Below are positions 2,363-56,700 of a stretch of 64,000 bases of DNA, one piece after another. A program made the translations under genes and the position numbers. The number at the start of each line of letters is the position of its first letter. The first letter of the stretch is position 1. This stretch comes from Asterias amurensis (taxonomy: Eukaryota > Echinodermata > Asteroidea > Forcipulatida > Asteriidae): the NCBI RefSeq assembly GCF_032118995.1, contig NC_092665.1, forward strand, positions 16,636,012-16,700,011. The letters run 5' to 3'. Below the pieces are notes generated by a model that was not told where the DNA came from, searched no databases, and worked only from the letters and a program-made list of their open reading frames with translations.

Positions 2363-2392
2363 CGTGAGCAGCCACTGACTATAAAGGGCCAA

Positions 2393-3360: not shown

Positions 3361-3381
3361 CGTGAGCAGCCACTGACTATA

Positions 3382-4299: not shown

Positions 4300-5033
4300 C
4301 TACAGATCGAAGAAGTAGCATTTATCTCTTGGCTTCATGTTTCCATCAGCAGCTTCATGACGAGTCGCGTTGTTCAGCTGACACACCATCTTCCCTGAGC
4401 CTTTTTCCATCAGCAGATTGAAGGAGCGACATCGGGGCTCTGATCGGCACGCCTTCCCGCACGACATCACACCATCAGCCCGTAGCTCCGTCATGACGTG
4501 ACCGACCAGACACTGGGACTCAACGCGGCCATCGGGACCGGTTTGAAGGCTGAACACCGGGGCGGTTGCTTCAACTGGGAGCTCACATACAATATTACGT
4601 TTAATATCACAATCTACGTCGAACCATTTACCATTTGCCCATTTGCCCATGATAGCGCAGTTTTTGCTGATGTTATTCCTAGGGTACAAGACTCCCCAAT
4701 TATTGTATCGGGTCAAGTCATCCTTTAAGGGCATGGTTCCCATTCACCTTCCTGTCTTATATCATTACAGCCAATCCAGAGACTTACGACTGGCGCCCAT
4801 TCAAACAAATCATTGAACGTAATCCAAATAAACGTTTGCTCCGTCTGTGAGTTAGCTACAGCAAGGGTTGAGCGTTGATATTTAAAGCAGGTATCATTTG
4901 CATCTTGCCAGTTCAAACGTTTGGTTATCAGTAAATAGCATGACTCGCCGTATCGCTGCCAGTCAGTAGGGCAGATAGCAGACAGGGTTGTATACAAACC
5001 AACTAGAAACAAGAAAACACTAGCCAGCTTCAT
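4300..5033 (-). pseudogene. Frameshifted C-type lectin + PAN copy (lectin 3)
   Basis: Two overlapping frames make one lectin. The first starts at the ATG at 5033 with signal peptide MKLASVFLFLVGLYT and runs into the lectin domain to ~4725. The second carries the rest of the domain and a complete six-cysteine PAN module, stopping at 4300. The cause is a run of three G (4729-4731) where lectin 2 has four (3058-3061); everything around it matches almost base for base. Lectin 3 therefore looks like a very recent copy broken by a one-base deletion, though a sequencing or assembly error in a G run would look the same. Its signal peptide is of the lectin 4 type while its lectin domain is that of lectin 2. 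If the base were present the protein would be about 243 aa. Confidence 0.75.
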
Positions 5034-5480
5034 CTTTAGAAGATACTGTTGGTTTTCTTACAAATGGAGGTATTAATTCACTAGGATGGAGCAGATATCT
5101 TTGTTTAGGGTTCTAATGACGCAACACCAAGCGACAGACTGCAGCAAAAGCACAAGCAAGATCCGTCTTGTTTCGAGGAATAACTGTTTTTCTTTCTGAA
5201 AGTTACTTTTCTCGCAGACCTTATAACATTTTTTCCTTGTTGTCTGACGTGGTAATCATTTCCAGTTTTGCGATGACAAATAAAAAGACTGCAAAAAAAC
5301 ACACTTTCAACCATAAGAACTCGAACAGGAATGTCTTTCCAATCAGCTTTATTTCATTCAGTGCGCACTATGTTTGTCGTCTTATTTACCTCTACGGGAA
5401 TTTCTACTGCTCTCGATATCTTGAGAGGTTTTATGAAATTCAGTCAAACACTCCCTGATGAATGTCAAGTTACCACAGAA
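5034..5480 (-). repeat. Upstream flank of lectin 3, homologous to flank of lectin 4
   Basis: Diverged but alignable with 7502-7895. Both contain an ATTCACTAGGATGGRGCAGAT motif close to the gene and GAAATTCAGTCAAACACTC further out. The duplication unit of lectins 3 and 4 thus included at least 400 bp of upstream DNA. The small plus-strand frames here are not convincing genes. Confidence 0.6.
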
Positions 5481-5805
5481 CTCAAGTTAATAAAGGCTGA
5501 TACACTGACGGTGAGTCCTTCGGGTTGCATGTAGGAGAAATTAAATATTGATATATGAATAAGAAACAACTATCAATATATTTTTCCTTGAGGGTACATC
5601 CGTTCCTTCCGATCTACTGCCCTAAACGATAATATATATGAAGCAATTTCAGAGAACCTTCATCAATTTATCCGTAATTAAGACAACCTTTGTGTGTTTT
5701 GTTTGTGTGTTTTTTTTTATACAATTAATGACCTTTAAATCACCGGATCCACTGCTATGAGGCCATCAATTAAGCTTGCAGCGCCGAGGACTGTGGACCT
5801 TCATC

Positions 5806-6195
5806 TTAATAATGCCATCTTCGTATGGTAATAATAATAACCGAATTTATAAAGCGCCTTTTCCAAAGGATGCAAAGCGCTAGGGATAATGCAACCAAAA
5901 CCCAAAAGAGAGAATGACTAGAATCAAAAACACAATAGATGGAACGATTAAACAGATGTGTTTTTAAAAGTCCTTTAAACTGTTCAACAGAAGAAGCGTT
6001 CCGGATGTTTGATGGGAGTGAGTTCCAGTTGCGGGGACCAGCGATGGAGAATGCACGGTCTCCAAACATCCTTGAGGATCGAGGTACCACCAGATTGTAT
6101 TGAGATCGAAGACCTTCACGTTTGGGTTTGCTGAGATCTAGTGTGTCTGAAATGTAGGATGGGAAGGTATTGGATACAGTTTTGAACATGTTCAG
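5806..6195 (-). mobile_element. 5'-truncated non-LTR retrotransposon fragment
   Basis: A 127-aa minus-strand frame carries GDRAFSIAGPRNWNSLP followed by SVEQFKGLLKTHLF, the typical C-terminal end of many LINE reverse-transcriptase proteins. It is followed by an AAGGCGCTTTATAAATTCGG-like 3' tail and an ATT microsatellite (plus 5828-5837), as expected at a LINE 3' end. No reverse-transcriptase catalytic motif is present, so it is a dead 3' fragment. Clade not determined. Confidence 0.75.
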
Positions 6196-6769
6196 TGCCG
6201 TCTATTAACAATGTCAATGATAATGCAAATTTTAGTTTCATAAAAATGGACCTGGTTATTTTAGTTCCTGCTTCGATTTGATAACTCTACGGATTATCAA
6301 TTATGACTTCTTTCTTTATATCGCACGAGACAAATAACACAAGGTTTGAGGTTTTAATATGTTTAAAAAAATGTAAGAATATCATCAAATTGTTAGTGCA
6401 AATGAAAATTGAATCGTCTGAAACTGAGTTTGTTTTACCAAATGAAATTATCGTTTTCTTCTCCTTTAACCGGTAAAAACATAAACGTGCTTAGCATGAA
6501 AATGTCTCTATAGCAGGAGAACGGTTACCAGTCAAATTCTTATTAATAACTATTAACTTGTGATTTTGCCCAGTATTTTTTGTCCTAAATGGTAAAACTT
6601 ATTTTGATGATTTTGAAATGAACGAAAACAAATTTGCAGAACAGTTATTCTTCCCGATTTTAATAAAAGGTTGTATCACTAATGCATGTTTTTATCCGGT
6701 AAATGTTTCAGCAGCTTTAAGCTCGATCACCGTGGAACGAGCAGTGACATAGTTCAGGTCTTCGGTTTC
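6196..6769. other. Intergenic DNA, no gene seen
   Basis: AT-rich sequence between the LINE fragment and the 3' end of lectin 4. I see no supported coding sequence; the last ~100 bases should hold the 3' UTR of lectin 4. Confidence 0.5.
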
Positions 6770-7501
6770 TCAAAGATCGAAGAAGTAGCACTTATATCTT
6801 GCTTTCATGTTTCCATCAGCAGCTTCATGACGAGTCACGTTGTTCAGCTGACAAACCATCTTCCCTGAGCCTTTTTCCATCAGCAGATTGAAGGAGCGAC
6901 ATCGGGGCTCTGATCGGCACGCCTTCCCGCACGACACTACACCAACAGCCCGTAGCTCCTTCATGACGTGACCGACCAGGCACTGAGACTCAACGCGGCC
7001 ATCAGGACCGGTCTGAAGGCTGAATATCGGGGTGGTTGTGGACTTGATGAGGACTTCGCACATAGCGTACAGCTCGACAGAACATTTTTTATCTGCCCAG
7101 CGACCACCAAAACCCTTTTTCATGGCAGCACAGTTTTGTTTAGCTTTATTACTCGGTTGATCAGATTTCCAGTTATTATAGGCGTGGTCTTCTTCCCTTA
7201 GTGGACAAGGGGTCCAAACATCCTCCTCTTCAATATCACTGCAACCAAACCAGAGGTCAAGAGGTGGTTCAACACCAAAGTAGCTCGTGAATTTATCCCA
7301 GATAAACGCCTGCTCTGCTTCCGAGTTGGGCACAGTTAGTGTCCCGTGTGGCCTGCAGGTATCATTTGCATCTTGCCAGTTCATAGGTTGAGTTATGAGT
7401 GAGTAGCATGACTCGCCGTATCGCTGCCAGTCAGTAGGGCAGATAGCAGACATGGTTGTATAAAAACCAACAAGAAACAAGAAAACACTAGCAAGCTTCA
7501 T
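6770..7501 (-). CDS. Secreted C-type lectin with PAN/Apple domain (lectin 4)
   Basis: Intact intronless frame of 243 aa from the ATG at 7501. Signal peptide 1-19 (MKLASVFLFLVGFYTTMSA), lectin domain ~20-155, six-cysteine PAN module to the end (CYFFDL). It has the most divergent lectin domain of the cluster and the most canonical ligand motifs: QPS where galactose-type lectins have QPD, and WAD where WND is usual, so it is the best candidate here for residual Ca-dependent sugar binding. The PAN module is almost the same as in the other copies, with single changes such as ARYKCYFF. Flanking DNA upstream is homologous to that of lectin 3. Presumed secreted; target unknown. Confidence 0.85.
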   Translation of the reverse strand: MKLASVFLFLVGFYTTMSAICPTDWQRYGESCYSLITQPMNWQDANDTCRPHGTLTVPNSEAEQAFIWDKFTSYFGVEPPLDLWFGCSDIEEEDVWTPCPLREEDHAYNNWKSDQPSNKAKQNCAAMKKGFGGRWADKKCSVELYAMCEVLIKSTTTPIFSLQTGPDGRVESQCLVGHVMKELRAVGVVSCGKACRSEPRCRSFNLLMEKGSGKMVCQLNNVTRHEAADGNMKARYKCYFFDL

Positions 7502-7895
7502 CTTAAGAAGATACTGTCGGTTTTTTTTATATATGAAGATAACAATTCACTAGGATGGGGCAGATGTCTTTGTGGAGTTGTCTGTTGTCTCGGTATAGAA
7601 GAATTTTCAAGGAACACAGTTTTTCTGAAGTACAGTTTTCGTGACGTTCCTTTCCAGGAGACGTTCTGCATTTGCCTGGTTGTCTGACGAAGTTATTTTC
7701 CACAGTTTTGCGATTAAAAATAAAAGACTGCAGTAAAATCGTTAGTAAGATCTTTGTGGACACTTCGTTTGTCTTGTCTTTACCTCTGAGTGAATATCTG
7801 CTTCTCATAATAAAAGATGGTTGTCTTGAGATGTTTCACGAAATTCAGTCAAACACTCTCCTGATGAATGTCAAACTGCAATATAACTCAAGTTA
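7502..7895 (-). repeat. Upstream flank of lectin 4, homologous to flank of lectin 3
   Basis: Diverged partner of 5034-5480 (shared ATTCACTAGGATGG and CAGTCAAACACTCYCTGATG segments). The lectin 4 promoter should lie in it. From here to 8985 I see no gene; TGACGTCA (7997-8004) is a consensus cAMP-response element by sequence alone. Confidence 0.55.
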
Positions 7896-8985
7896 TCAAC
7901 AATTGCTGACGAACGTTTGGCAGTGAGCCATGCAGATGGTAATGTGAAAAAATGTTATGTTAATATCTGCTAATAATTTCATCAACAAGCTGGAGATGAC
8001 GTCATGACCTAGTCACTTTGTTGTAGTAGAATAGCATATCGATATTTGTGCTTAATGGAGAGCACATTACATCCGTTTTTGATCTAACCATAGTTATGAA
8101 GCTATTAGTTAACCTTTATCAGTCGAGCTGTAATAACAAAAGTCTTTGTTGGCTCGGTGACTCCAGTAATGCCAAATGTTGCATTTTTATTGTTGATGGG
8201 CTTACGCTTGCGAAATCCTTCAATTAAGGTTTTAATAGACCGAGATGAGCATAATCAATGGCAGAGAAATATCAGACTAATATTGGGTTTGTTGACATTT
8301 ATTATGCTACAACCATCTTTGTGTTAGACCCTTTGTAAAAAATGCCAATAACAATGCAAATTATAGTTTCATATAAAATGGACCAGCAGCCGATTTCACA
8401 GACAGAACGAGTCACTACTCTTTGATTCCCATTCATAATGCCCTTTTTGATAAAAAACGTTAAAAAATACAATTACAGACACTTTGACAGTTGAAAAATC
8501 GAGGTTTGAAATATTTTTTACGCGCTGTTACTCATAGCTATGAATTGCGTTCCGCGTGATAATCTTGCGTGCCTGACACGCGGAAGCCAGCCAGTTATAA
8601 ACACTGGTCATTATCAACCGTTTAAACACCCCCACGTAACGCGCTCTCCGCCAATAAGAGTAAAGAAACTGTCTGGGGTATTTATGAATATTAGTTATAG
8701 TTACTTCGTAAATATTAATGTGTTAAAAGGGTACTTTCATAATTAACACAATGTGCTGCAAGGTTGCATTATTAAGGGCTTAGACAAAGTGGATGTCGGT
8801 ACTGAACCGACTACTAAGTGCTTTCTATTATTTAAAAAACCAACCTTCGGTTGTGGTATACTGTTATGATGCACTGGTGTATTTTGGCATTCGGGATATA
8901 GCACTCAACCACAGTGTACGCCATTTTGAACGAAGTTGATGCATCCACATTTGAAGCTCTACCAATTGAAGAAAGTCATTTCAGA

Positions 8986-9720
8986 ATGAATATCGGTGTT
9001 TTGTTGTTTCTGGTTGGGTGTTATGCAACCCTGGCTGCTATCTGCCCTACTGACTGGCAGCGATACGGCGAGTCATGCTACTTACTCATAACTCAAAAAC
9101 TTGATTGGCAAGATGCAAGAGACATTTGCATTGAGTTACATGCAGACCTGGCTTTTCCAAACTCAGATGCCGAACAAAAGTTTATTTGGGAAATGTACGG
9201 TGGATTTTACCCTGCCTTCCCAGGAGGTCTCTGGATCGTTTGCAATGACTTTGAAGAAACTGGAAATTGGCAACCTTGTCCACTCTCTGATAACAATGGA
9301 TACCAGCATTGGGCAACTGGATTTCCCCAAAACACGAACAACCACTGTGTGGCAATGTCGTCCTCCATTGGGTTTTTTGGTGGACAATGGGCGAACAGAA
9401 ATTGTAATGGTATTTACAAAAAATACGCGACCTGCGAGTACCATGTTAACACAACCACCCCGTTAGTCTGCCTTCAGACTGGTCCCGATGGCCGCGTTGA
9501 GTCCCAGTGTCTGGTCGGTCACGTCATGACGGAGCTACGGGCTGATGGTGTGATGTCGTGTGGGAAGGCGTGCCGATCAGAGCCCCGATGTCGCTCCTTC
9601 AATCTGCTGATGGAACAAGGTCCAGGGAAGATGGTTTGTCAGCTGAACAATGCGACTCGTCATGAAGCTGCTGATGGAAACATGAAGGCAAGAGATAAGT
9701 GCTACTTCTTCGAACTGTAG
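8986..9720 (+). CDS. Secreted C-type lectin with PAN/Apple domain, inverted copy (lectin 5)
   Basis: Intact intronless gene of 244 aa, the only lectin on the plus strand. The open frame extends upstream to a GTG at 8914, but the first ATG is at 8986 and gives a signal peptide straight away (MNIGVLLFLVGCYATLAA before ICPTDW). The lectin domain equals lectin 1 through the first ~59 mature residues, then diverges sharply over the loop region that forms the ligand site in this fold (FPQ and WAN in place of HPE and WMN), and converges again at YATCEYH. A six-cysteine PAN module ends CYFFEL. ATTAAA at 9800-9805 is a possible polyadenylation signal. Opposite orientation implies an inversion or inverted duplication. 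Confidence 0.85.
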   Translation: MNIGVLLFLVGCYATLAAICPTDWQRYGESCYLLITQKLDWQDARDICIELHADLAFPNSDAEQKFIWEMYGGFYPAFPGGLWIVCNDFEETGNWQPCPLSDNNGYQHWATGFPQNTNNHCVAMSSSIGFFGGQWANRNCNGIYKKYATCEYHVNTTTPLVCLQTGPDGRVESQCLVGHVMTELRADGVMSCGKACRSEPRCRSFNLLMEQGPGKMVCQLNNATRHEAADGNMKARDKCYFFEL

Positions 9721-13429: not shown

Positions 13430-14158
13430 TCATGTGATACCGACACCGGAGCATGCAATGGGGTAGACTAGAACAGCTCCCAGCTGAGAGAAGAGAGCGC
13501 TTGTTTCAACCGAGGTGTCTTGAGTACATGTACCGTACTTCTCTGAGTAACCCCATTTACCGATACCAAAGAGTGGAAGGGAACAGATTAATGCTGGATA
13601 GACCCACGTGACCGCCAACATGGCTGCTATCTTCTTATGTGTGTAGATGGCCTGGTATGTCTGCATGGGTTTTGTAATGAGGACGTATCGGTTAATGGCG
13701 ATGCTGGCGAGATTCATGATGCTGCATCCAAGGCTGAGGAAGTATATGGCAGCGGACACGGCGCATACCAGCTCAGGCAATGGCCAGCCATCGATGCTGA
13801 ACAACGCTACCGCAGCGAAAGGTGTCGCGAGGCACGATATCAGGTCGGCCGTGGCGAGGTTGACGACGAAGGCGTTGGTGCTGGTCTGGAGCTTCTTGGA
13901 TAAGACCACGGCCATAATCACCATGGTGTTCCCCACCAGCCCGGAGACGGCTACGAAGCAGTACACGCAGCCAAGAAAAAGTAGTACTTCGTGGTTTATA
14001 CCTTCAAAACGAAAGTTTATGCCGTCTCCTGTGGTTTTGGTTATGCCAACGGTTGTCATGTCTGACTCGGTTGGATCCTGGAATCCACTGGGTGTGGTGA
14101 AGAAGACATTCATTTCTGTAGAGTTAAGAACAACTCCAGCTGATACCGTGGTCTCCAT
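13430..14158 (-). CDS. Rhodopsin-like GPCR, 5' exon (TM1 to TM5), 3' part missing
   Basis: Starting at the ATG at 14158 (the longer frame begins at TTG) the frame gives 242 aa. An extracellular N-tail of ~57 residues with an NST glycosylation site precedes TM1 (~58-85, GN motif), TM2 (~96-120, NLATAD), TM3 (~131-160, ending in NRY, a variant of DRY), TM4 (~176-200, with W185) and an extracellular loop with Cys211 that can pair with Cys132. TM5 begins (SQLGAVLVYPIAC) and the frame stops at 13430 in the middle of that helix. A GGTATC sequence just before the stop could be a splice donor (phase 1), so this may be the first coding exon of a spliced gene whose TM6/TM7 lies outside the readable part, or a truncated pseudogene. 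By look it belongs to class A peptide/amine/melatonin-like orphan receptors; the ligand cannot be told. Confidence 0.75.
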   Translation of the reverse strand: METTVSAGVVLNSTEMNVFFTTPSGFQDPTESDMTTVGITKTTGDGINFRFEGINHEVLLFLGCVYCFVAVSGLVGNTMVIMAVVLSKKLQTSTNAFVVNLATADLISCLATPFAAVALFSIDGWPLPELVCAVSAAIYFLSLGCSIMNLASIAINRYVLITKPMQTYQAIYTHKKIAAMLAVTWVYPALICSLPLFGIGKWGYSEKYGTCTQDTSVETSALFSQLGAVLVYPIACSGVGIT

Positions 14159-14334
14159 GAGGATCGTAGAATGTGATAGGTGTATGGGATGCGATTTATA
14201 GACGGTGAATCTGGACCGTGGAGTGTCAATCAACCTGTTGATAATAAAACATTGTACATTTTTAGGGCAAGGGCGTCAATCATAAGGGGTTCCGGGACCA
14301 TCTTAATTTAAGGGTATTGGTTTTTAACCTTCTT

Positions 14335-43400: not shown

Positions 43401-45090
43401 AGAGTCAAGTATCTTGAGAAAGAGAATGGAGTTCTTCAAGATCGCATTGATACCTTGAGTAGACAGAGGGTTGCTATGGAGAAACTCATCAGGGAGTACA
43501 GGTTGGAGAAACAGAAAATGGTGAGTAACAGTGAGAAGTATGAGGTTTGGTTTGTTTTAACCTGGGGGGGGGGGTGAGTAAGCAATGTATTGAGGGCACT
43601 ACACGAGTCTGGATTATTTTCATTGAGGCACATGTCCATCATTGCTACTCCACTGAAGTTGTCATAGAGTACAGGTTGGAGATGTAGAAAATGTTTAGAG
43701 CGAGGGTTTTCATGATTTGTCAAACACATTCAGGGGTGTTACAGTTTTTTGTTAAAATCGGCCTTCAAATGTCTGTGGGAAGAAGAAATTGTAAAAGTTT
43801 AGGAAACAGTAGAAAGGTAAGATTGTAATAATCGCGTTTCTGACAAACTCACAACACTAGATTGGCAGTGGGACTTGTGTTTTAAATTGTTAAATTAAAG
43901 AGTACATATATTTGCACTTAACAAGTTCGTTTTTAATGTTACAATCTTACAAGTCTGCAACTTGTCCGTCTTTAATTTGCATGTCTTTATTTTAACTATG
44001 ATCCTGATTGCATGTGTGCTCACAGTTTCAAGCAGGCCTGCAGTCTGCAATGAGCTTTTACAAACCATCTATAATTAATAATGCTGCTTTACCACTGCAT
44101 GTTTATGTTCTATTATTTTGCTACTTTTTTTCCATTTTGCTTTCATGTGGCACTTTCTGCACCCTTATTTATAACCTGCTTTTGCTGCATGGTCCTTGAC
44201 TCTGCCTGCTTGTCTGGGTTCCTGCCTGGTTGCCTGTCTGGGTGCCTGTCTGGGTGCCTGTCTGGGTGCTCGTTCTGGGTGTAGGAGATTGACAAGTCCT
44301 TGCTAGTCTCACCAGCTGGTGGCTTTACGATGACCTCTCCCCTCAGTACGCTAAATTCTTCCCTACCTCGGACCACGCTCACTAGTGGGCTTGGCCAATC
44401 ACAGAGGTAAGGTTTGTTGTTTTAGGTAAATTTTTAAAGATGTTCTTTTCTTTTGTATTTGATGCACAGTATTTTAAAGTGATCGCAGAATTTTGGTCCT
44501 TCATAGATTTACTTTGAATACTGCCCTCTTGTGATTATTTTGCACTTGTGCTGCATCCTCATGCTTGCCCAGCTACAAAACTATGCGCTTTAAAGGTTTT
44601 GAATTAAATAAATTCTAACCCAACCCACCCCAATACCTATTATTTAATGGTCAGCTTTTGAAATACAATCTCAACTTGTTAGCAAAAAATTGTTCGAAAA
44701 CAAAAGTAGTTAAATGTAAATATGTGACAAACATTGCATGCAGGGTGCTCATAGTAAGTTGTTTATTGTAGACTTGATGTTACCTAATTGCTAAACATTG
44801 TGTTTTTGTGCATAAATGTCTCATGAAAACGAAAAGCATCAATTCCAAACGCAATATTTAACCAGATTTGAGGTGTCACTGTTTTGTTTTTGTTTTTGTC
44901 TGACAGCCCGAGTTACATCTCAACCCTTGATACTCGGAGTACCCACAACAGCGGTTACTCACCGATGAGAGCAAGTCACCAAGGAACAAGAAACTCAGGG
45001 TACAATCAACACAGCGCTTTGAATCGTCAGTCATTACGAAGTCCTGTCCTAAGTACTACTCAAAGCTCCGATAATGATACTGACTCATGA
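37498..45090 (+). CDS. Same coiled-coil gene, coding exons 15-27 and stop
   Basis: Exons: 37498-37567, 37927-38060, 38430-38582, 38994-39131, 39472-39555, 40282-40398, 41585-41742, 41925-42090, 42447-42619, 42753-42917, 43340-43520, 44285-44406, 44907-45090. Every junction keeps frame, including split codons at 37567, 41742, 42619, 42917 and 44406. The product continues as coiled coil to about exon 25 (RVKYLEKENGVLQDRIDTL, MEKLIREYRLEKQKM), then changes to a Ser/Thr-rich, disordered tail with tyrosine-containing NSGYSP and NSGYNQ and the end SSDNDTDS. The donor of exon 20 (GTGCTG) is weak. The acceptor of exon 26 lies behind a CTGTCTGGGTGC minisatellite. The coding part of exon 27 is tandemly repeated beyond the stop. 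Confidence 0.75.
38100..38340 (+). repeat. Dispersed retroelement-like fragment with TAA tract
   Basis: Begins with a TAATAATAATAAT tract and ends AGTTCATTCCATAGTTGTGGG. The internal wording (AAAGAAAAGTCTTCACTTTT, AATATCAATGGATTGAGAG) recalls widespread metazoan retroelement tails, orientation uncertain. Intron after exon 16. Confidence 0.4.
40489..40586 (+). repeat. Perfect 49-bp tandem duplication
   Basis: GACTTGCACAGCTATTTAAT...GTATACTCTG occurs twice head to tail with no visible mismatch, so very recent. Intron after exon 20. Confidence 0.9.
41802..41871 (+). repeat. 35-bp tandem duplication
   Basis: TTTGATTCCTTGAAATTGAA plus ACTTCCTTACTTACA is present twice in a row. Intron after exon 21. 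Confidence 0.9.
43025..43299 (-). mobile_element. tRNA-headed SINE, copy 2 (minus strand)
   Basis: On the minus strand: GTGTCATGGCCGAGTGGTTT (A box), GGTTCGAATCCCGG (B box), then TGTCCTTGAGCAAGATGCTT, TGGTAGAGGTTGATATTGTG and GGGAGCTGAGGAAG. This is the best preserved copy; partial relatives are at 33787-34075, ~57417-57545 and ~57838-57925. It ends 40 bp before the acceptor of exon 25. Confidence 0.8.
44195..44284 (+). repeat. 12-bp minisatellite forming the exon 26 acceptor tract
   Basis: Units of TGCCTGTCTGGG, about four regular plus degenerate ones, run up to the TAG acceptor at 44282-44284. The pyrimidine content of the repeat stands in for the usual polypyrimidine tract. Confidence 0.75.
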
Positions 45091-45391
45091 GTGTCAATGT
45101 GAGAGCGAGTTACCAAGGAACAAGAAACTCGGGGTACAATCAACACAGCGCTTTGAATCGTCAGTCATTACGAAGCCCTGTCCTAAGTACTACTCAAAGC
45201 TCCGATAATGATACTGACTCATGAGTGTCAATGTGAGAGCGAGTTACCAAGGAACAAGAAACTCGGGGTACAATCAACACAGCGCTTTGAATCGTCAGTC
45301 GTTATGAAGCCCTGTCCCATAAGTACTACTCAAAGCTCTGATAATGATACTGACTCATGAGTGTCAATGTGTGAGCGAGTCACCAAGGAAC
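44964..45391 (+). repeat. Tandem repeats of the terminal coding segment with stop codon
   Basis: The end of exon 27 (CACCAAGGAACAAGAAACTC through ACTGACTCATGA) is repeated downstream. The stop TGA is at 45088-45090 and equivalent TGAs lie at 45222-45224 and 45358-45360, giving periods of 134 and 136 bp. A fourth copy breaks off near 45391. Periods are not multiples of three and the real stop precedes them, so copies 2-4 are 3' UTR. Confidence 0.9.
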
Positions 45392-47290
45392 AGCTGTGCC
45401 TCTTCCAAGACGGCAGCGGGACGATGTGTGACGTAAGTTCTGTTATTCAGAAAGAATTTGTTGCTTGAGGTTAAATTGACTTAAACATTTGAGATATTTG
45501 GAAGGATACACACTGGATGTTGCATGGAGATCGCAACATCATTAAGAAGAGGTCTGATTCTGAGATGTTATACTGGACTTACGTCTTGAGAAATAAGGGT
45601 CTAATCCTAAAATTGTCCTGCAAGAAAAGATGCAAGTCTCGACACTTAGGACACCATTTTTTATTGGCCTCATTATTAATGGAACTATCAGTGAATGCAA
45701 AAGTTGAGGAACGAAGAATTTGTGATCAGGTTTTAAATTGAGATGCATTATTGGCAATAATAAGAGTCTTATTTTGATACATTTTATACATGTTTTGGAT
45801 AATCTTTAGGTCTAGAAATACTTTTCTTAAGAATGAATTATGGCTGCATTCCTAAATTAGATATATTATGTGAAACTTATAAATTGAAGTGCCTAGTTTT
45901 GATAATGTAAGACCTCTCATTGCTTTGACTAAGATTTCCAACAATCCTTTGTGCATCGAGAATGGGCTTCAAGTTACACTTAGTAAAAGGGTTGGTTGGG
46001 AAATATGTAAAACTGTTATTCATTTTGTATATTTTTATTTTTTTTTCCTTTGTGTACTTGTTTGATCAGCCCTACTAATGCTCACTCAGGATGAATTATA
46101 ATGCAATTTATAGAATGTGTATTATAGTTATACAAATATGCTAAAAATTGTGCCTTCTCTTCAACCAAACAGTTTGATCTGCTTCTAAAACACTCCACAT
46201 TGTGACGCTTTTCCTCAACATATTGTTGCACAAATTCATAGCTTTAGCAATCTTGCACAAAAGAAACTGAAAGAATTTTTACTCATTACCATAGGTTTGA
46301 TGTTCACATCTGTGATAGTTTTGCCAAGTTACGACAGTTGAGTGTTTTCAAACATGCGTAACACTTTAGATATTTTATTTTTTTCCTGACCCATGTTAAT
46401 TAATAAGAGGTTTTTAGGTTAGGAAAATGATGTGCTGTGATTTATCGTCTGCAAAGATAGTTTTTTTTTTCTCTTTGATGTGTGCTTGTTGTATTTTTGA
46501 CATTGATGTTTGCTCAAGGACCAAATTTCACACTAGTAGTTGGTTAGGGATGTTTGTAGGGTATGCGCACATAAGTCGAAGTTTGAGCGGCTCTAGTCAT
46601 GTCATGTCAACATGACCATAAAATAATGCAAGCAATCTATTGATATGTGAGGGTCTGGTGAAAACAGGACTCAAGACCAAATGGACTTAAGTTTTACGGC
46701 TTTAGCCGACAGCAGAGTAAACTAATTTCTGCTGAGATTTTTGTTTCTAACCAGAGGCTGTTTTTTATTGATAGACATTAATATTTAAGATCTTAAGTTG
46801 TATTTAGATTCTAATCATTCCTCAAATATGTATGCTTTTTTATAATGTGGTTTTCAATTTGAAAGATATTTGCCTTATTATGTAATTATATCAATCCTTA
46901 GACTGGATACAGAACCTAAGACAGGCATCAATGGTGGAAATTGGTAGTCAATTTCTTATGCCAAAGTTGAAGGAGAGATTTTGTAGCTGAGTTCTTTTCT
47001 TTCTCCTTCAGAGACCACTAGACATTTAGCAAACAATTAAGGCCCAACCATGCAAGTAAAGATTGTGCTAAATTTGTTTTGAGTAATTTATTGGAAATTC
47101 TTCAATTTTATAGCTAGTTGTTTGTATTTTTGTATGTTTTATAATATAGCCTTATTTATTTTGTACATAGATATTGTAGACTGTGGACGCTTTTGTTGTA
47201 ATATATTAATATTCTTCAAGAAAATTTAATGTTTTTCATATTTGAAGATGTGTTATTTTCTATTTATTCCTGAACATTCTTTGTTTTTCC
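45392..47290. other. 3' flank of the coiled-coil gene, no further gene seen
   Basis: AT-rich. The 3' UTR should end in it, but I did not find a clear AATAAA at a convincing place. No other coding sequence. Confidence 0.5.
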
Positions 47291-50200
47291 TGGCTATAAG
47301 CCTTGTGAACTTTTCAGCCAAAATTTGACAAAGTTCACAAGGCTATATAGCCTTGTGATCTTTTCCAGCCAAAAATTCACAAGGCTATAGCCTTGTGATC
47401 GTTTTCAGCCAAAAATTGACAAGGCTATAGCCTTGTGATCTTTTCCAGCCAAAATTTGACAAAGTTCACAAGGCTATAGCCTTGTGATCTTTTCCAGCCA
47501 AAATTTCACAAGTTTCACAAAGTTCATAAGGCCTTGTGATCTTTTTCAGCCAAAAATTGACAAGGCTATAGCCTTTGATCTTTTTCAGCCAAAAAGTGAC
47601 AAAGTTCACAAGGCTATAGCCTTGTGATCTATTTCAGCCAAAAATTCACAAGGCTATAGCCTTGTGATCTTTTTCAGCCAAAAATTGACAAAGTTCACAA
47701 GGCTATAGCCTTGTGATCTTTTCCAGCCAAAAATTGACAAAGTTCACAAGGCTATAGCTTTGTGATCTTTTTCAGCCAAAATTTCACAAAATTCACAACA
47801 AAATTCACAAGGCTATATAGCCTTGTGATCTTTTTCAGCCAAAAATTGACAAAGTTCACAAGGCTATAGCCTTGTGATCTTTTCCAGCCAAAATTTGACA
47901 AAGTTCACAAGGCTATAGCCTTGTGATCTTTTTCAGCCAAAAATTCACAAGGCTATAGCCTTGTGATCTTTTTCAGCCAAAAACTGACAAAGTTCACAAG
48001 GCTATAGCCTTGTGATCTTTTCCAGCCAAAATTTGACAAAATTTGACAAAGTTCACAAGGCTATAGCCTTGTGATGTTTTCCAGCCAAAATTTGACAAAG
48101 TTCACAAGGCTATAGCCTTGTGATCTTTTCCAGCCAAAATTTGACAAAGTTCACAAGGCTATAGCCTTGTGATCTTTTTCAGCCAAAAATTCACAAGGCT
48201 ATAGCCTTGTGATCTTTTTCAGCCAAAAATTGACAAAGTTCACAAGGCTATAGCCTTGTGATCTTTTCCAGCCAAAATTTGACAAAGTTCACAAGGCTAT
48301 AGCCTTGTGATCTTTTTCAGCCAAAAATTCACAAGGCTATAGCCTTGTTTTTTTTTCAGCCAAAAATTGACAAAGTTCACAAGGCTATAGCCTTGTGATC
48401 TTTTTCAGCCAAAAATTGACAAAGTTCACAAGGCTATAGCCTTGTGATCTTTTTCAGCCAAAATTTCACAAAGTTCACAAGGCTATAGCCTTGTGATCCT
48501 TTTTCAGCCAAAATTTGACAAAGTTCACAAGGCCTTGTGATCTTTTTCAGCCAAAAATTCACAAGGCTATAGCCTTGTGATCTTTTTCAGCCAAAAATTG
48601 ACAAAGTTCACAAGGCTATAGCCTTGTGATGTTTTCCAGCCAAAATTTGACAAAGTTCACAAGGCTATAGCCTTGTGATCTTTTTCAGCCAAAAATTGAC
48701 AAAGTTCACAAGGCTATAGCCTTGTGATGTTTTCCAGCCAAAATTTGACAAAGTTCACAAGGCTATAGCCTTGTGATCTTTTCCAGCCAAAATTTCACAA
48801 AGTTCATAAGGCTATAGCCTTGTGATCTTTTCCAGCCAAAATTTGACAAAGTTCACAAGGCTATAGCCTTGTGATCTTTTCCAGCCAAAATTTGACAAAG
48901 TTCACAAGGCTATAGCCTTGTGATCTTTTTCAGCCAAAAATTCACAAGGCTATAGCCTTGTGATCTTTTTCAGCCAAAAATTGACAAAGTTCACAAGGCT
49001 AGGCTATAGCCTTGTGATCTTTTTCAGCCAAAAATTGACAAAGTTCACAAGGCTATAGCCTTGTGATCTTTTTCAGCCAAAATTTCACAAAATTCACAAG
49101 GCTATAGCCTTGTGATCCTTTTCCAGCCAAAATTTGACAAAGTTCACAAGGCTATAGCCTTGTGATCTTTTTCAGCCAAAAATTCACAAGGCTATAGCCT
49201 TGTGATCTTTTTCAGCCAAAAATTGACAAAGTTCACAAGGCTATAGCTTTGTGATCTTTTTCAGCCAAAATTTCACAAAATTCACAAGGCTATAGCCTTG
49301 TGATCTTTTTCAGCCAAAAATTGACAAAGTTCACAAGGCTATAGCCTTGTGATCCTTTTTCAGCCAAAATTTGACAAAATTCACAAGGCTATAAGCCTTG
49401 TGATCTTTTTCAGCCAAAAATTGACAAAGTTCACAAGGCTATAGCCTTGTGATCTTTTTCAGCCAAAAATTGACAAAGTTCACAAGGCTATAGCCTTGTG
49501 ATCTTTTTCAGCCAAAAATTGACAAAGTTCACAAGGCTATAGCCTTGTGATCCTTTTTCAGCCAAAATTTGACAAAGTTCACAAGGCTATAGCCTTGTGA
49601 TCTTTTCCAGCCAAAATTTGACAAAGTTCACAAGGCTATAGCCTTGTGATCTTTTTCAGCCAAAAATTCACAAGGCTATAGCCTTGTGATCTTTTTCAGC
49701 CAAAAATTGACAAAGTTCACAAGGCTATAGCTTTGTGATCTTTTTCAGCCAAAATTTCACAAAATTCACAAGGCTATATAGCCTTGTGATCTTTTTCAGC
49801 CAAAAATTGACAAAGTTCACAAGGCTATAGCCTTGTGATCTTTTCCAGCCAAAATTTGACAAAGTTCACAAGGCTATAGCCTTGTGATCTTTTTCAGCCA
49901 AAAATTCACAAGGCTATAGCCTTGTGATCTTTTTCAGCCAAAAATTGACAAAGTTCACAAGGCTATAGCCTTGTGATCTTTTCCAGCCAAAATTTGACAA
50001 AATTTGACAAAGTTCACAAGGCTATAGCCTTGTGATCTTTTCCAGCCAAAATTTGACAAAGTTCACAAGGCTATAGCCTTGTGATCTTTTTCAGCCAAAA
50101 ATTGACAAAGTTCACAAGGCTATAGCCTTGTGATCTTTTTCAGCCAAAAATTCACAAGGCTATAGCCTTGTGATCTTTTTCAGCCAAAAATTGACAAAGT

Positions 50201-52457
50201 TCACAAGGCTATAGCCTTGTGATCTTTTTCAGCCAAAAATTGACAAAGTTCACAAGGCCTTGTGATCTTTTTCAGCCAAAATTTCACAAAGTTCACAAGG
50301 CTATAGCCTTGTGATCCTTTTTCAGCCAAAATTTGACAAAGTTCACAAGGCTATAGCCTTGTGATCTTTTTCAGCCAAAAATTCACAAGGCTATAGCCTT
50401 GTGATCTTTTTCAGCCAAAAATTGACAAAGTTCACAAGGCTATAGCCTTGTGATGTTTTCCAGCCAAAATTTGACAAAGTTCACAAGGCTATAGCCTTGT
50501 GATCTTTTCCAGCCAAAATTTCACAAAGTTCATAAGGCTATAGCCTTGTGATCTTTTTCAGCCAAAAATTGACAAAGTTCACAAGGCTATAGCCTTGTGA
50601 TCTTTTCCAGCCAAAATTTGACAAAATTTGACAAAGTTCACATCTTTTCCAGCCAAAATTTGACAAAGTTCACAAGGCTATAGCCTTGTGATCTTTTTCA
50701 GCCAAAAATTCACAAGGCTATAGCCTTGTGATCTTTTTCAGCCAAAAATTGACAAAGTTCACAAGGCTATAGCCTTGTGATCTTTTCCAGCCAAAATTTG
50801 ACAAAGTTCACAAGGCTATAGCCTTGTGATCTTTTTCAGCCAAAAATTCACAAGGCTATAGCCTTGTGATCTTTTTCAGCCAAAAATTGACAAAGTTCAC
50901 AAGGCTATAGCCTTGTGATGTTTTCCAGCCAAAATTTGACAAAGTTCACAAGGCTATAGCCTTGTGATCTTTTCCAGCCAAAATTTCACAAAGTTCATAA
51001 GGCTATAGCCTTGTGATCTTTTTCAGCCAAAAATTCACAAGGCTATAGCCTTGTGATCTTTTTCAGCCAGAAATTGACAAAGTTCACAAGGCTATAGCCT
51101 TGTGATCTTTTTCAGCCAAAAATTCACAAGGCTATAGCCTTGTGATCTTTTTCAGCCAAAAATTGACAAAGTTCACAAGGCTATAGCCTTGTGATGTTTT
51201 CCAGCCAAAATTTGACAAAGTTCACAAGGCTATAGCCTTGTGATCTTTTCCAGCCAAAATTTGACAAAGTTCACAAGGCTATAGCCTTGTGATCTTTTTC
51301 AGCCAAAAATTCACAAGGCTATAGCCTTGTGATCTTTTTCAGCCAAAAATTGACAAAGTTCACAAGGCTATAGCCTTGTGATCTTTTTCAGCCAAAAATT
51401 GACAAAGTTCACAAGGCTATAGCCTTGTGATCTTTTTCAGCCGAAATTTCACAAAATTCACAAGGCTATAGCCTTGTGATCCTTTTCCAGCCAAAATTTG
51501 ACAAAGTTCACAAGGCTATAGCCTTGTGATCTTTTTCAGCCAAAAATTCACAAGGCTATAGCCTTGTGATCTTTTTCAGCCAAAAATTGACAAAGTTCAC
51601 AAGGCTATAGCTTTGTGATCTTTTTCAGCCAAAATTTCACAAAATTCACAAGGCTATAGCCTTGTGATCTTTTTCAGCCAAAAATTGACAAAGTTCACAA
51701 GGCTATAGCCTTGTGATCCCTTTTCAGCCAAAATTTGACAAAATTCACAAGGCTATAGCCTTGTGATCTTTTTCAGCCAAAAATTGACAAAGTTCACAAG
51801 GCTATAGCCTTGTGATCTTTTTCAGCCAAAAATTGACAAAGTTCACAAGGCTATAGCCTTGTGATCTTTTTCAGCCAAAATTTCACAAAGTTCACAAGGC
51901 TATAGCCTTGTGATCCTTTTTCAGCCAAAATTTGACAAAGTTCACAAGGCTATAGCCTTGTGATCTTTTTCAGCCTAAAATTCACAAGGCTATAGCCTTG
52001 TGATCTTTTTCAGCCAAAAATTGACAAAGTTCACAAGGCTATAGCCTTGTGATCTTTTCAGCCAAAAATTCACAAGGCTTGTGATCTTTTCCAGCCAAAA
52101 TTTGACAAAGTTCATAAGGCTATAGCCTTGTGATCTTTTTCAGCCAAAAATTGACAAAGTTCACAAGGCGAAAATTTGACAAAGTTCATAAGGCCTTGTG
52201 ATCTTTTTGAGCCAAAAATTGACAAAGTTCACAAGGCCTTGCGATCTTTTTCAGCCAAAATTGACAAAGTTTACAAGGCTGTATAAGCCTTGTGATCTTT
52301 TCAGCCAAAATTTGACAAAGTTCAAGTAATTCTTTTCAGTCAAAATATGACTCGTTCACAAGGCTATAGCCTTGTGATCTTTTTCAGTCAAAATATGACA
52401 AAGATCACAAGGCCTTGTGATCTTTTTCAGTCAATATATGACAAAGTTCACAAGGCT
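47291..52457. repeat. Satellite array of 49- and 40-bp units with a 20-bp palindrome
   Basis: About 5.17 kb. The main unit is the palindrome CACAAGGCTATAGCCTTGTG followed by ATCTTTTTCAGCC and AAAAATTGACAAAGTT (49 bp). A common short form lacks GACAAAGTT (40 bp) and a rarer form repeats TTGACAAAA. Two spacer flavours alternate (TTTTTCAGCCAAAAATT and TTTTCCAGCCAAAATTT). Unit order recurs over long distances: the stretch from ~49067 closely matches that from ~51430, and ~47745 matches ~49725, so there is higher-order duplication. I estimate over 100 units. Both edges, especially after ~52060, are degenerate. It lies between the convergent 3' ends of the coiled-coil gene and CSTF1. Frames in it are meaningless. 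Confidence 0.95.
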
Positions 52458-52746
52458 CATAGCAAGTGGCATAGACAAAAACGAACAAGGGACACACAAC
52501 AATTTACCTAAAAATTACAATTTTAATTTTCAAGACAACAATAAACTCAGTTTAGAGTACATGTTCTTCTACTTCAAATATTTACAAAGGTGAAGGTGCA
52601 ATGTGGAGGTGCAATTTGGCATTTGAAACCAATAACTGTTTCAGTCAATGTCCAGAGATCAACCAATGGCAAGTTCAACCGAAATAGTAATTGGTTACAA
52701 AAGCAGAAAATAAGTCAGTGACTGTCTCATGAGAAAAATTGGTACC

Positions 52747-52876: not shown

Positions 52877-53053
52877 AATGCTTGACAGCATACAAGTTTT
52901 CTAGCACTTGATATAAGGACTCTGTAACAACAGTTTCATCTACTTGTAAAGATAAACAAACAAATATTGTTCAAACAATCCACTTAATGTATACAAAGAA
53001 TAAAAAGAAAAAATCAAAATACAACTTGACACAAGTGTGAAATTTGTTGATAC

Positions 53054-53259
53054 CATAGAGTTATATATAAGAACTAGAGGGCACACTGGTGATGCTTCTT
53101 GCACAAACGCGACGGGACCGAAACGAGACACATGCTGTTTTGTCAACTTACAAAATGGCCGCACAAACACACGCTGAGCGATGCCAGTGGATGCCGGCGC
53201 GCATGCTGGGTCACGTATATAGGCCAGTGCGCCCTCTAGTTCTTATAAATAACTCTATG
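53054..53259. mobile_element. hAT-like MITE with 8-bp target duplication
   Basis: 206-bp element with inverted ends CATAGAGTTATATATAAGAA / TTCTTATAAATAACTCTATG extending into AGAGGGC / GCCCTCT. It is bounded on both sides by GTTGATAC (53046-53053 and 53260-53267), an 8-bp target-site duplication as hAT transposons make. No transposase frame; it needs an autonomous partner. Downstream of CSTF1. Confidence 0.85.
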
Positions 53260-53720
53260 GTTGATACTAATATTACGGATGCGTTTTGGCGGCTGTAACC
53301 AATCATGGTTTCGCTTATTTGCTATTGATAAACCAATGGCCATTTCAACCCAAATAATTATTGGCCACAACCGGGAAAAACCACAGCCGCAAAACAGACC
53401 CATATAGCAAAGTATTTGGCAACATCTGATTACCATCCAAAATGCCACATTCATGTGAACTGTTTGTAACTGGTCCACTGTAAGATCTTCTTAGCACAGA
53501 ATAACTATGTAATGATCAAAGCAGGAAATAGTTTACCAACCACCCCTTTAAGTGTTGTACAGTACTGCACTGTGACTGGTATCCTGTCCTTTTTGCCCAA
53601 AGTGGTAAAACTCATTTAGAGAAGCTGTTGCATTCTAGCCTTTGTCGCTGCTTTTAAAATGTTCACCTTAAGATAAGACAACGAGAATTCCAATGACTTT
53701 GATGAAACCTCTTTGCTGGT

Positions 53721-56700
53721 TTAGTCTGAACTTGGTCTGTAGTACCAGAAACGAGCTCTGAAGTCATCACTGCATGTCATGAATCCAGGCCCAGTGGGAG
53801 AGTGAACAATGCAGCGGACGATGTTATTGTGACCTACATGGAATACAAGAAATAAAGATAATAGATTAAGACAAGACTGGTTGGAGCAAACAATGTGCCC
53901 TACATGTATGGTATTACAAAAACAAAGAATAGATGCAGGCCAGGTAACAGTGAACAGTGCAGTTATAAGCCACTTCGGAATGTCAGTGGCGCATGTCCGT
54001 TACTGCTGACAACGGACTTTGTCTATCTCCCGTAACCTTTTGACAATACCCGCTGGTATTGTCAAAAGGTCACGGGAGATAGACTTGGTCCGTTGTCAGC
54101 AGTAACAGACATGCGCAGCTGGAACTCCAAAGTGGCTTATTGTGACCTACATGGATGAAAAAAAAGATATCAAGAAATAAGGAAAATAACCTTAATATGG
54201 GACTAGTGTGAGTGAATATTATGGGGATGCAACTGATATTATTTCCATTCTATGCATACAGTGATTGGTACAGTAGCATAGCTAATATTTATCGCACCTT
54301 GGGGCAAGGCTACAGGAAGATGCCCATTCAGTCACTATTTATCGCACCTTGGGGCAAAACTACAGGAAGATGCCCATTCAGTCACTTTGTCTTCCAAAAT
54401 CTTAGCAATACTTTGAGAATATTGAAATAATTATAACACAAATTTGAGCTAGAGCTCCCCCCCCCCCTTCCCCAAGGTCACAACCCAGTGTTCCTGGCAT
54501 GGTTAGCTGCGGATTGAATCCCTTCAACTTATAGCCCTCTAGGGTTTATAAGTTGAAGGTTTAGGGTTAGGGTTAGGGTTAGGGTTAGGGTTAGGGTTAG
54601 GGTTAGGGTTAGGGTTAGGGTTAGGGTTAGGGTTAGGGTTAGGGTTAGGGTTAGGGTTAGGGTTAGGGTTAGGGTTAGGGTTAGGGTTAGGGTTAGGGTT
54701 AGGGTTAGGGTTAGGGTTAGGGTTAGGGTTAGGGTTAGGGTTAGGGTTAGGGTTAGGGTTAGGGTTAGGGTTAGGGTTAGGGTTAGGGTTAGGGTTAGGG
54801 TTAGGGTTAGGGTTAGGGTTAGGGTTAGGGTTAGGGTTAGGGTTAGGGTTAGGGTTAGGGTTAGGGTTAGGGTTAGGGTTAGGGTTAGGGTTAGGGTTAG
54901 GGTTAGGGTTAGGGTTAGGGTTAGGGTTAGGGTTAGGGTTAGGGTTAGGGTTAGGGTTAGGGTTAGGGTTAGGGTTAGGGTTAGGGTTAGGGTTAGGGTT
55001 AGGGTTAGGGTTAGGGTTAGGGTTAGGGTTAGGGTTAGGGTTAGGGTTAGGGTTAGGGTTAGGGTTAGGGTTAGGGTTAGGGTTAGGGTTAGGGTTAGGG
55101 TTAGGGTTAGGGTTAGGGTTAGGGTTAGGGTTAGGGTTAGGGTTAGGGTTAGGGTTAGGGTTAGGGTTAGGGTTAGGGTTAGGGTTAGGGTTAGGGTTAG
55201 GGTTAGGGTTAGGGTTAGGGTTAGGGTTAGGGTTAGGGTTAGGGTTAGGGTTAGGGTTAGGGTTAGGGTTAGGGTTAGGGTTAGGGTTAGGGTTAGGGTT
55301 AGGGTTAGGGTTAGGGTTAGGGTTAGGGTTAGGGTTAATACTTCAAACATAGCCCTGCATATCTGTCATAAAAATATTGAGTGCTTGGACATCTCGGTTG
55401 GGCATAGAATAAGGGAAGTAAAATAGCTAAGTTTTATTTAAAATTATTACGAGTTTCAATGAAAGAGGGGCTACACACCTAGAGACAGGAGTTTATTTCT
55501 CTCAGCATTGCGTGAATCCCAGCAGCAAAGACTAGTTGTCTTCTCATCTGGAAATAACACTGTACACAAAGGAATCAAACAAGAAAGGAATTTAAGGATC
55601 AATTAAAATCAACAACAAGTTTAGAGATGTAACTGGTTATTAAAGATAATCAGAAAAATGCAAGGCTAGAAAAAAGCAGGTCAGGATTTGGGGCAAGTGT
55701 CTGGAATTTGAGGCGAGGCAACCTCGACACTTGGTGTGAATCCTGCAGTTGCCTGTCATCTGCAATGACAAAACTGAATGAATGGCTTTTACAGTGACCG
55801 GTCATAGCCAGAAAACAAATCTGCCATTTTAGACACGACGGTACTTTATGACAAAAGAAAGTCCTTTGTTGTCTGTTCATTTTGACATTCAAGTAGACTT
55901 ACCATAATCCTCTGAGTGATTGAAGACAGCCCTTGTTTCATGCTGTTGTTTCTCTGAGCTTGCTCCAGTGTAGGTGATTAATGTGCGACTGTTGGCGACC
56001 TCCCATAGCTTGACAAGGGAGTCTTTCCCACTAGAGACTAGATACTATAAAGACAAAAAAACATAGGATCAAATATTAAATGCTAGGGAGTTACTACAAC
56101 GACAAAGGATCAAAATATTAAATGCTAGGGAGTCTTTCCCACTGGGCACTAGATACTACAAAGACATAAAATACAATTGATCAAAATATTAAATGCTAGG
56201 GAGTTACTCAAAAGACAAATTATCAAACTATTAAATGGACGATAGATTTTACAAAGACAGAGAATAGAGAAACTCAAGGTTTGTACAAAAAAGTGTTCTT
56301 CACTTGACTTTATACTTCAAGTCTTCAAGAAATGTTTAAAAGCAAATGAAGATCAATGAAGTGATAAATCAATGACCAGATTAAAATGTAGTATAGACTA
56401 TTTTCTTCTTACCTTTGAGTTTCTGGAGAATTGTATTGAGCATACGTCTGTTCCACTGTGTGCTTTATCTAAGGTGTTGACACAACGATTACTGACGCCA
56501 TCCCATATCTTAATACTACCATCTTTACTCGCTGTGGCATAAATGGTGGCGTTTGGACTGTAGGTCACCTAGAAAGATATAAACACAGATGGAGAAAAGT
56601 TAAAGAAAGTTACAACATTGATCTTGCAGGCCTTGTGTATTATGAACAAGCAAGGCTATATAAGCCCTTTTGAGGTATGGCGGACACAATACTATAGCAC

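Follow-up and report, generated by a model that had tools for sequence, protein, structure and literature searches.

Satellites usually drift as a whole. Centromeric satellites with CENP-B boxes or rich in dyads carry a short constant box, with dyad symmetry, in an otherwise diverging sequence. Tandem repeats are also described in association with mobile elements and inverted repeats. According to the passages cited here, the repeats of the foldback element Tetris of Drosophila virilis feed free satellite arrays, TIR-220 (PMC4079207), the tandem repeats in the TIR of Galileo bind the THAP domain of its transposase (PMC3688188), and Helentron/HINE elements in oyster carry satellite-like arrays (PMC7492417). 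A transposon with long inverted repeats is on record from sea urchin (Lieberman 1983, as cited in PMC4079207), and in Schizosaccharomyces pombe inverted repeats with five B-boxes each border silent chromatin and have tested boundary activity (PMC4502379). Here, we compare with these systems a palindromic satellite of the sea star Asterias amurensis, found in a 64,000-nucleotide stretch of DNA that was analysed as a whole (the window). The core string was not found in the literature searched, and the matches listed for starfish and echinoderm satellites included no account of it.

A dispersed palindromic satellite

The array in the window, which an earlier note had pointed out from the letters, is real: its coordinates match the sequence and Tandem Repeats Finder, a check proposed there, calls it with units of 49, 89 and 138 bp (Table 1). 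Its unit is approximately TTCACAAGGCTATAGCCTTGTGATCTTTTTCAGCCAAAAATTGACAAAG (49 bp); a variant of 40 bp is devoid of TGACAAAGT. The recurrence every 40 or 49 bp holds, as most spacings among 93 cores (up to 3 substitutions) are 49 bp (55 times) or 40 bp (18 times), followed by 50 bp (6 times) and scattered others. The estimate of probably over 100 copies is right for units, of which the HMM finds 108 at 8 bits or more, but not for exact palindromes: exact matches to CACAAGGCTATAGCCTTGTG number 82, and 92 copies are counted when up to 2 mismatches are allowed (0 in 100 shuffles). The palindrome is not intact in every unit: centreless units (CACAAGGCCTTGTG), units with CTATATAG centres and one-arm mutants also occur. 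The centre varies in length, being empty, CTATATAG or CTATATATAG. That the array is an assembly expansion is unlikely, because the published assembly was built from PacBio HiFi reads and further arrays of similar size occur in the genome.

Table 1. Coordinates of the satellite array and its surroundings in the window
Feature	Position	Strand	Evidence or remark
Palindromic-core satellite array	47291..52457	+	5167 bp; Tandem Repeats Finder, palindrome copies, spacings, HMM units
20-bp palindrome CACAAGGCTATAGCCTTGTG, first exact copy	47378..47397		String match
20-bp palindrome CACAAGGCTATAGCCTTGTG, last exact copy	52357..52376		String match
Left flank, single copy in genome	46890..47289		1 match, itself
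Right flank common to the C21:1.92 Mb array (87%)	52462..52545	+	No other place among matches listed
Right flank continued, common to C21:1.92 Mb (88%), beyond an insertion in the window	53188..53550	+	Sequence match
MITE-like sequence	53052..53261		Inverted ends 53052-53089 / 53224-53261, 94.7%

The array could have been a single locus. A genome search returned instead 2028 exact copies of the core in dispersed arrays, against 0 matches for a reversed control string and 111 for a 20-base window-type spacer string, and the window array belongs to a superfamily of dispersed satellites with units of 46–50 bp. Cores and arrays are unevenly spread among chromosomes: the six largest, C1–C6, hold 25 of the 2028 exact cores in the contig-ordered list, and several dispersed arrays per chromosome are found, for example, on C7, C12, C15, C18 and C21. 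At C3:19.69 Mb an array has many degenerate cores, and a short array at C18:11.66 Mb (L053) contains only centreless palindromes, that is, units without the central TA. The 18-mer is absent from viral contigs, a collection from which records near the A. amurensis genome may be left out. As a side observation, the unit can be parsed in the manner of a micro-MITE, as TA between inverted 9–10-bp ends.

The surroundings of the window array were also searched, the right flank through 40 scored candidates of 238, where matches other than the C21 array belong to a dispersed repeat farther out. The MITE-like sequence lies across the inner boundary of the right flank's second shared piece. Between the 300-base flanks, no direct or inverted repeats rose above shuffles. 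A high-copy transposon enclosing the array was considered and rejected, the left flank being single copy and the right flank having one further location among those listed, beside the C21 array. This shared right flank argues that the window array or its source may have moved along with flanking DNA.

Constancy of the core: sequence or fold

Among arrays on different chromosomes the 18-bp palindrome ACAAGGCTATAGCCTTGT is nearly invariant, with spacers about 20% diverged. In 44 arrays with 1771 units, array consensuses differ from the majority of arrays at 8 of 782 core and 231 of 1157 spacer positions, the last two columns and the midpoint pieces L086, L090 and L091 (no HMM match) being discarded; against the unit-pooled consensus the differences are 8/782 and 272/1157. 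Inside arrays, 903 of 29157 core and 2974 of 43451 spacer positions are changed. The contrast is thus about 20-fold between arrays and only 2.2-fold within them, and the constraint is more visible in the array consensus than in single units. HMM hits below 8 bits or overlapping a better hit were discarded before counting, as were columns with fewer than 3 units per array and, for the within-array, core-pair and unit-pooled counts, columns in which fewer than 30 arrays were represented. The arrays are akin to one another, so that p-values overstate their independence. Young amplification, offered in the earlier note, does not by itself explain a core common to 44 diverged arrays.

Is it the sequence or the fold of the core that is kept? 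A palindrome constant over 44 arrays with diverging spacers is a natural experiment that separates the two constraints, and so far it points to sequence. Across the core pairs of these arrays, 13,052 cells are unchanged, 871 are changed on one side and 15 on both (2001 gapped cells were set aside). Only 5 of the 15 are complementary and about 13.8 doubles of any kind are expected under independence. Since complementary changes in the arms are not more frequent than expected by chance, nothing in the 44 arrays indicates that only the fold is maintained, and a purely structural role is disfavoured. The binding or structural role suggested in the earlier note thus survives in its first half: binding or recognition is favoured because between arrays the core is about 20 times more constant than the spacers, spacer-string arrays included.

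The same data bear on a structure-driven replicator, in which the palindrome would extrude as a cruciform or hairpin and stall forks or be cut, the breaks driving amplification and ectopic copying with no specific protein site. We consider this unlikely, though it has several observations on its side, including the long inverted arms found at other loci and the centre-length variants, which are common and in many cases still palindromic. Self-complementarity is strong: for a 199-base piece the most favourable structure has great stability (z −16.4 for RNA and −14.5 for DNA), but in it palindromes pair across units instead of simply giving the expected row of identical hairpins. Consensus rows compared by eye between arrays display no visible co-variation of the core-adjacent sides that would extend a hairpin past the core, and the premise that such palindromes are normally unstable is overstated at 20 bp. 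The central pair (24/25) has 4 complementary doubles against 1.9 expected doubles of any kind; over all nine pairs, however, one-sided changes prevail and doubles stay near chance. A constraint on fold alone should moreover permit other palindromes, and no such alternative is present in any of the 44 array consensuses, while fixed core changes are one-sided (CCTTGT to CCTTAT in 6 arrays, for example).

Alternatively, the satellite may be neutral, spread from a common source by unequal exchange and gene conversion, its constant core being due to chance or to the way arrays were found. The arrays are indeed dispersed and locally homogenised, the degenerate cores at C3:19.69 Mb fit, several searches were based on the core or a core variant, and palindrome-less sister satellites were left out of the count. 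Nevertheless, the contrast persists in the five arrays listed through a spacer string (core 0/84, spacer 15/135), two of which are also in the BLAST listing. It persists as well in the seven palindromic arrays reached through their arms (1/126 against 24/181), a group not entirely blind to the core because two sister-satellite arrays that did not match the unit HMM were omitted from the core count. Inside 39 of the 44 arrays, too, the core is less variable than the spacer, and a neutral origin seems to us distinctly improbable.

Inverted arms and possible cassettes

The satellite family is linked to long inverted arms. Away from the window, many arrays lie between convergent arms of about 0.9 kb in a foldback-like arrangement, with arm alignments of 917 bases at C15:15.98 Mb (96.3%) and 985 bases at C21:3.72 Mb (91.5%). 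In a sample of the best 40 of 178 candidates (a short 41st row of the arm-match listing was dropped), 17 neighbour pairs lie within 40 kb, of which 14 are convergent, none divergent and 3 on the same strand. Long inverted repeats of foldback type are found at two arrays and in 14 of 17 neighbour pairs, and not at the window array, the window having no arm match; none were seen beside further fully read arrays such as C15:16.82 and C21:11.87. The matched arm parts are 3.3–17 kb apart, one pair 30 kb.

Of the convergent pairs, 11 of 14 have the palindromic satellite inside (read completely in two and partially in one, sampled at a 241-base midpoint in seven, and detected by a single variant-core match in one); two enclose a sister satellite without the palindrome, and one contains neither at the midpoint sampled. 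The sister satellite retains the half-site TCACAAGG. Because it fills 2 of 10 sampled cassettes, the palindrome is not required for a cassette. Arms and core integrity are also uncoupled, since the armless window array has the highest fraction of intact cores among eight arrays compared (89/99) and the armed ones less (78/161 at C15:15.98, 90/129 at C21:3.72); other armless arrays range from 114/254 to 52/61.

In their outer part, the C21 arms lack homology to those of C15. A C15 outer-arm query, which itself begins at the matched start so that the true arm end may lie farther out, matched from base 1 onwards at C15 0.12, 3.73, 12.87 and 13.70, C14 2.22 and one C22 arm; the other C22 arm starts at 54 and the C6 arms about 95 bases in. 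No target-site duplication was evident by eye at C15:15.98 and C21:3.72, and satellite pieces adjoin the C15:15.98 arms on the outside. An arm piece is found beside C14:2.22, and the C18:17.09 array has a 48-base arm fragment (83%) in its vicinity. Two B-box motifs are present in each of the four arms inspected. No known RNA family reached gathering score in the window or in six loci, armed ones included, none was found in the C15 arm at E up to 1, and ARAGORN called no tRNA either in the window or in 17 loci, so that any link between arms and tRNA would depend on the B-box motifs alone.

A constant palindrome amid drifting spacers, together with mirror-image arms at many arrays, therefore suggests a mobile cassette with a protein-recognised palindrome. 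We tentatively propose, with a confidence slightly short of even, a foldback-associated satellite family whose palindrome is probably the recognition site of a dimeric protein. From these sequence features we infer both recognition of the palindrome and mobilisation of the cassettes. The putative binder would most likely be a transposase-like factor that mobilises or amplifies cassettes, or else a host protein that they exploit. Arrays with enough intact sites would go on being copied and homogenised; those losing them would cease to be copied and decay. The window array would either have escaped from an armed cassette or be a free satellite belonging to this family. Besides the sister-satellite cassettes and the unlike outer arms of C21 and C15, further observations were counted against this proposal: the window array is armless though its cores are the most intact; the central pair has a slight excess of complementary doubles; and the variable centre length and the centreless-only array L053 would hardly be tolerated by a rigid dimer. 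If a transposase-like or host protein does bind the palindrome, satellite birth, foldback cassettes and array-level selection would be joined in one system, and binding of the 18-mer, if real, would be a direct test of the way in which functional boxes are preserved in satellites.

The constant box within a diverged satellite, the paired B-box motifs of the arms and the uneven chromosomal distribution would also suit a chromatin platform, where arrays bind a CENP-B-like or heterochromatin protein for pairing, centromere or boundary and B-box arms serve as borders. This has little probability in our view, as several loci on many chromosomes, with so few exact cores on C1–C6, do not amount to one centromere per chromosome, and the window array is armless. 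We give still less credence to cassettes as portable chromatin domains, in which mirror-image arms with B-boxes as TFIIIC-type borders would enclose a dense array of dimer-binding palindromes and free arrays would be the bare platform without borders; were it true, the sea star would have evolved, repeatedly along its chromosomes, an arrangement that is known elsewhere from individual loci of fission yeast. Finally, tandem micro-MITEs (TA plus an element of about 45 bp with inverted ends GCCTTGTGA...TCACAAGGC, accumulated in tandem through successive insertions into TA) would account for the parsing of the unit noted above but are very improbable, given unequal ends in several arrays (CACAAGG...CCTTGTA) and units without the central TA that make an array of their own (L053).

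Comparison with known systems

How does the recognition-site family proposed here relate to described systems? It resembles CENP-B-box satellites in its constant box and dyad symmetry, whereas its arrays are dispersed, with several on C7, C12, C15, C18 and C21 in place of one major block per chromosome. With Helentron/HINE elements it would share mobile carriers spreading satellite-like arrays genome-wide (PMC7492417). HINEs as described there have subterminal inverted repeats, a microsatellite and a 3′ palindrome in the flank; the sea star palindrome lies inside each unit, and shared subTIR flanks of that type were not found at the window array, with its single-copy left flank and a right flank at one other listed place. 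Inverted repeats with B-boxes as flanks recall S. pombe (PMC4502379), although the passages on that system concern a functional locus and the sea star has many putative cassettes, with two motifs in each of the arms examined. The sea urchin transposon (Lieberman 1983, as cited in PMC4079207) is likened by description only, as an echinoderm element with long terminal inverted repeats. Galileo and Foldback likewise associate tandem repeats with long inverted arms, but in the account cited Galileo has its repeats, with THAP-binding sites, in the TIRs (PMC3688188), whereas the sea star satellite lies between the arms. Tetris/TIR-220, as far as the source cited describes it (PMC4079207), has in common with the sea star family long inverted arms with tandem repeats within the element, and the occurrence of these repeats also as free kilobase-size arrays, the satellite occurring here both inside armed cassettes and, in the window, as a free array. 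Unlike Tetris, the sea star family has a unit of 46–50 bp with a near-invariant palindrome, a satellite that fills the interior between the arms, and arms with B-box motifs and no target-site duplication identified.

Genomic setting and distribution of the satellite

The genome searched comprises 491,506,623 bp in 23 contigs, 22 of them chromosomes (C1-C22), and places the window at C18:16636012-16700011; contig 23 carries COX1, which is open throughout with the echinoderm mitochondrial code. For the published Asterias amurensis assembly, the available part of its description (PMC10625585) gives PacBio HiFi reads, 22 chromosomes of 13.43-38.00 Mb, a total of 491,537,102 bp, a scaffold N50 of 23.75 Mb and a longest contig of 28.59 Mb. 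Two more full-model COX1 matches lie on C5 (658874-660214 and 675294-676634), 16,420 bases apart, and represent either mitochondrial DNA copied in tandem into the nuclear genome or an insert made during assembly.

Palindromes in the window array are chiefly 49 and 40 bp apart, and none of the 20-bp type appeared in 100 shuffles of the sequence. Since the 400 bases of the left flank are single copy genome-wide and the adjoining right flank matches no place beyond C21:1.92 Mb among the matches listed (best 40 of 238 candidates), the look of the flanks makes it unlikely that the array is embedded in a high-copy element. Degenerate TTAGGG adjoins the C21:3.72 Mb array, as a telomeric array lies near the one in the window.

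Features of the window, in positions from its start
Feature	Position	Description
Tandem satellite array	47291-52457	82 exact and 92 near-exact 20-bp palindromes
Right flank of the array	52462-52545 and 53188-53550	87-88% identity to flank of C21:1.92 Mb array
Interstitial telomeric array	54557-55337	130 TTAGGG copies, 2.1 kb from the satellite
Separate tandem repeat	44966-45392	134-bp unit, 3.2 copies with 96% matches; ~1.9 kb to the left of the satellite array
Inverted repeat	53965-54140	86 bp, 4-base gap, 87% complementary
ORFs with C-type lectin and PAN domains	1631-9720	Pfam-checked at 1631-2392 and 6770-7501
Similar-looking lectin/PAN-type ORFs	2803-3393, 4300-4743, 8902-9720	
Rhodopsin-family GPCR	13430-14233	Coding stretch

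The genome contains 2028 exact copies of the palindrome and none of its reversed control. Only 25 of these copies are on C1-C6 (the listing is apparently in contig order), yet these chromosomes make up roughly one third of the genome. A variant core, with centre CTATATAG followed by GTGA, gave 287 strand-matches, a number in which some sites figure twice, once per strand. Arrays with variant cores are present on C1 and C3. BLAST with 410 array bases gave 718 matches, of which the best 27 of 511 candidates were scored, so array counts are lower bounds. The spacer 20-mer of the window type has 111 matches, at few loci among the matches listed (100 of 111); among these, only the plus strand is matched on C18 at 11.66, 13.69, 14.91, 15.78 and 16.68 Mb, and at 17.09 Mb each strand is matched once. 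The C18:11657200-11658200 piece holds a mini-array of 5 or 6 units with centreless palindromes only; the 54-bp direct repeats on either side of it differ at 4 positions and look like an insertion footprint. At C21:11.87 Mb, GC-rich sequence, rDNA-like by eye only, directly abuts the right array edge.

Inverted arms around the arrays

The arrays at C15:15.98 and C21:3.72 Mb each lie between inverted repeats, or arms (alignments of 917 bases at 96.3% and 985 bases at 91.5%, respectively), which have ~460 bases in common at 91-93%. A genome search with 457 arm bases found at least 40 main places and one fragment (best 40 of 178 candidates). Among these 40 places, neighbours up to 40 kb apart formed 17 pairs, of which 14 were convergent, 3 on the same strand and none divergent; the arm sequence has no match anywhere in the window. 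The two convergent pairs read whole (C15:15.98, C21:3.72) contain satellite, the C15:0.65 pair encloses a fetched satellite piece and the C12:16.92 pair one variant-core match. One 241-base midpoint from each of ten convergent pairs gave palindromic satellite in 7, a sister satellite in 2 and neither in 1. The sister satellite has a 54-bp unit that keeps the half-site TCACAAGG and lacks the palindrome; pieces at C18:15.016 and C20:12.714 Mb show it (unit ...TCACAAGGGGTAAGTCCAGC...) enclosed by these same arms.

All four arms examined carry two B-box motifs 152-154 bases apart (consensus from general knowledge), and no tRNA or Rfam family was recognised in the arms and loci examined. The outer arm at C15:15.98 is common to other C15, C6, C14 and C22 loci and not to C21; satellite pieces again border the outer sides of the C15 arms.

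Core constancy and spacer divergence

A unit HMM run over 44 arrays (142,919 bases) yielded 1771 units. When one consensus per array was compared with the majority, the 18-bp core was changed at 8 of 782 positions versus 231 of 1157 in the spacers. By search route, core versus spacer changes were 0/180 versus 64/270 in arrays found by BLAST with the window array (n=10), 1/54 versus 28/80 by exact core (n=3), 7/446 versus 116/644 by the CTATATAG variant (n=25) and 0/84 versus 15/135 by spacer string (n=5), a string that itself fixes part of the spacer and a group of which two members (C9:21.98, C16:14.51) are also in the BLAST listing; the 44th is the window array itself. Seven of the ten midpoint pieces, outside the 44, gave 1/126 versus 24/181, a group not fully blind to the core because the other three, including both sister satellites, have no HMM match and fall outside the count.

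Within arrays the contrast is far weaker: 903 of 29,157 core positions deviate versus 2974 of 43,451 in the spacers, and in 39 of the 44 arrays the core varies less. Thus single units lose the palindrome, and arrays of the family rarely fix a changed one. The spacer-found C3:19.69 Mb array, however, has many degenerate cores and counts against this rule despite its intact majority core.

Across the nine core pairs, 13,052 cells were unchanged, 871 had a one-sided change and 15 a double change, of which 5 were complementary and 10 were not; 2001 gapped cells were set aside. Were the two sides independent, ~13.8 doubles of any type would arise, so the pairs as a whole give no sign of compensation, though at the central pair 4 doubles are complementary where 1.9 doubles would be expected. 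All 8 core changes fixed between arrays are one-sided, as a recognised sequence predicts and a constraint on folding alone does not; six are G to A in CCTTGT, probably through shared descent. Centre-length variants of the palindrome speak against rigid spacing. A 199-base array piece folds far better than shuffles, palindromes of different units pairing together.

What the cassettes and the palindrome may be

We found no match to the core string in a literature text search, and no account of it among the open-access PubMed Central papers examined on starfish and echinoderm satellites; the available parts of two A. amurensis genome papers (one being PMC10625585) give repeats in bulk only.

The armless window array has 89 of 99 cores intact, the highest of eight arrays compared (armed C15:15.98, 78/161; armed C21:3.72, 90/129; armless C15:16.82, 114/254), which shows that arms are unnecessary for keeping the core and allows for the action of a host protein or for recent homogenisation. 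Because arms are present and their orientation is constant, the cassettes, arms plus interior, are best described as a foldback-like element. No target-site duplication was evident by eye at C15:15.98 and C21:3.72, and inverted duplication in place is a possible origin of the cassettes. Two known elements offer precedents. Tetris of Drosophila virilis, a foldback feeding a satellite (PMC4079207), resembles these cassettes in combining foldback-type arms with satellite, and Galileo, in which tandem repeats in long inverted repeats serve as transposase-binding sites (PMC3688188), resembles them in tying tandem repeats to long inverted repeats. By analogy, we infer a two-fold recognition site as the most likely role of the palindrome.
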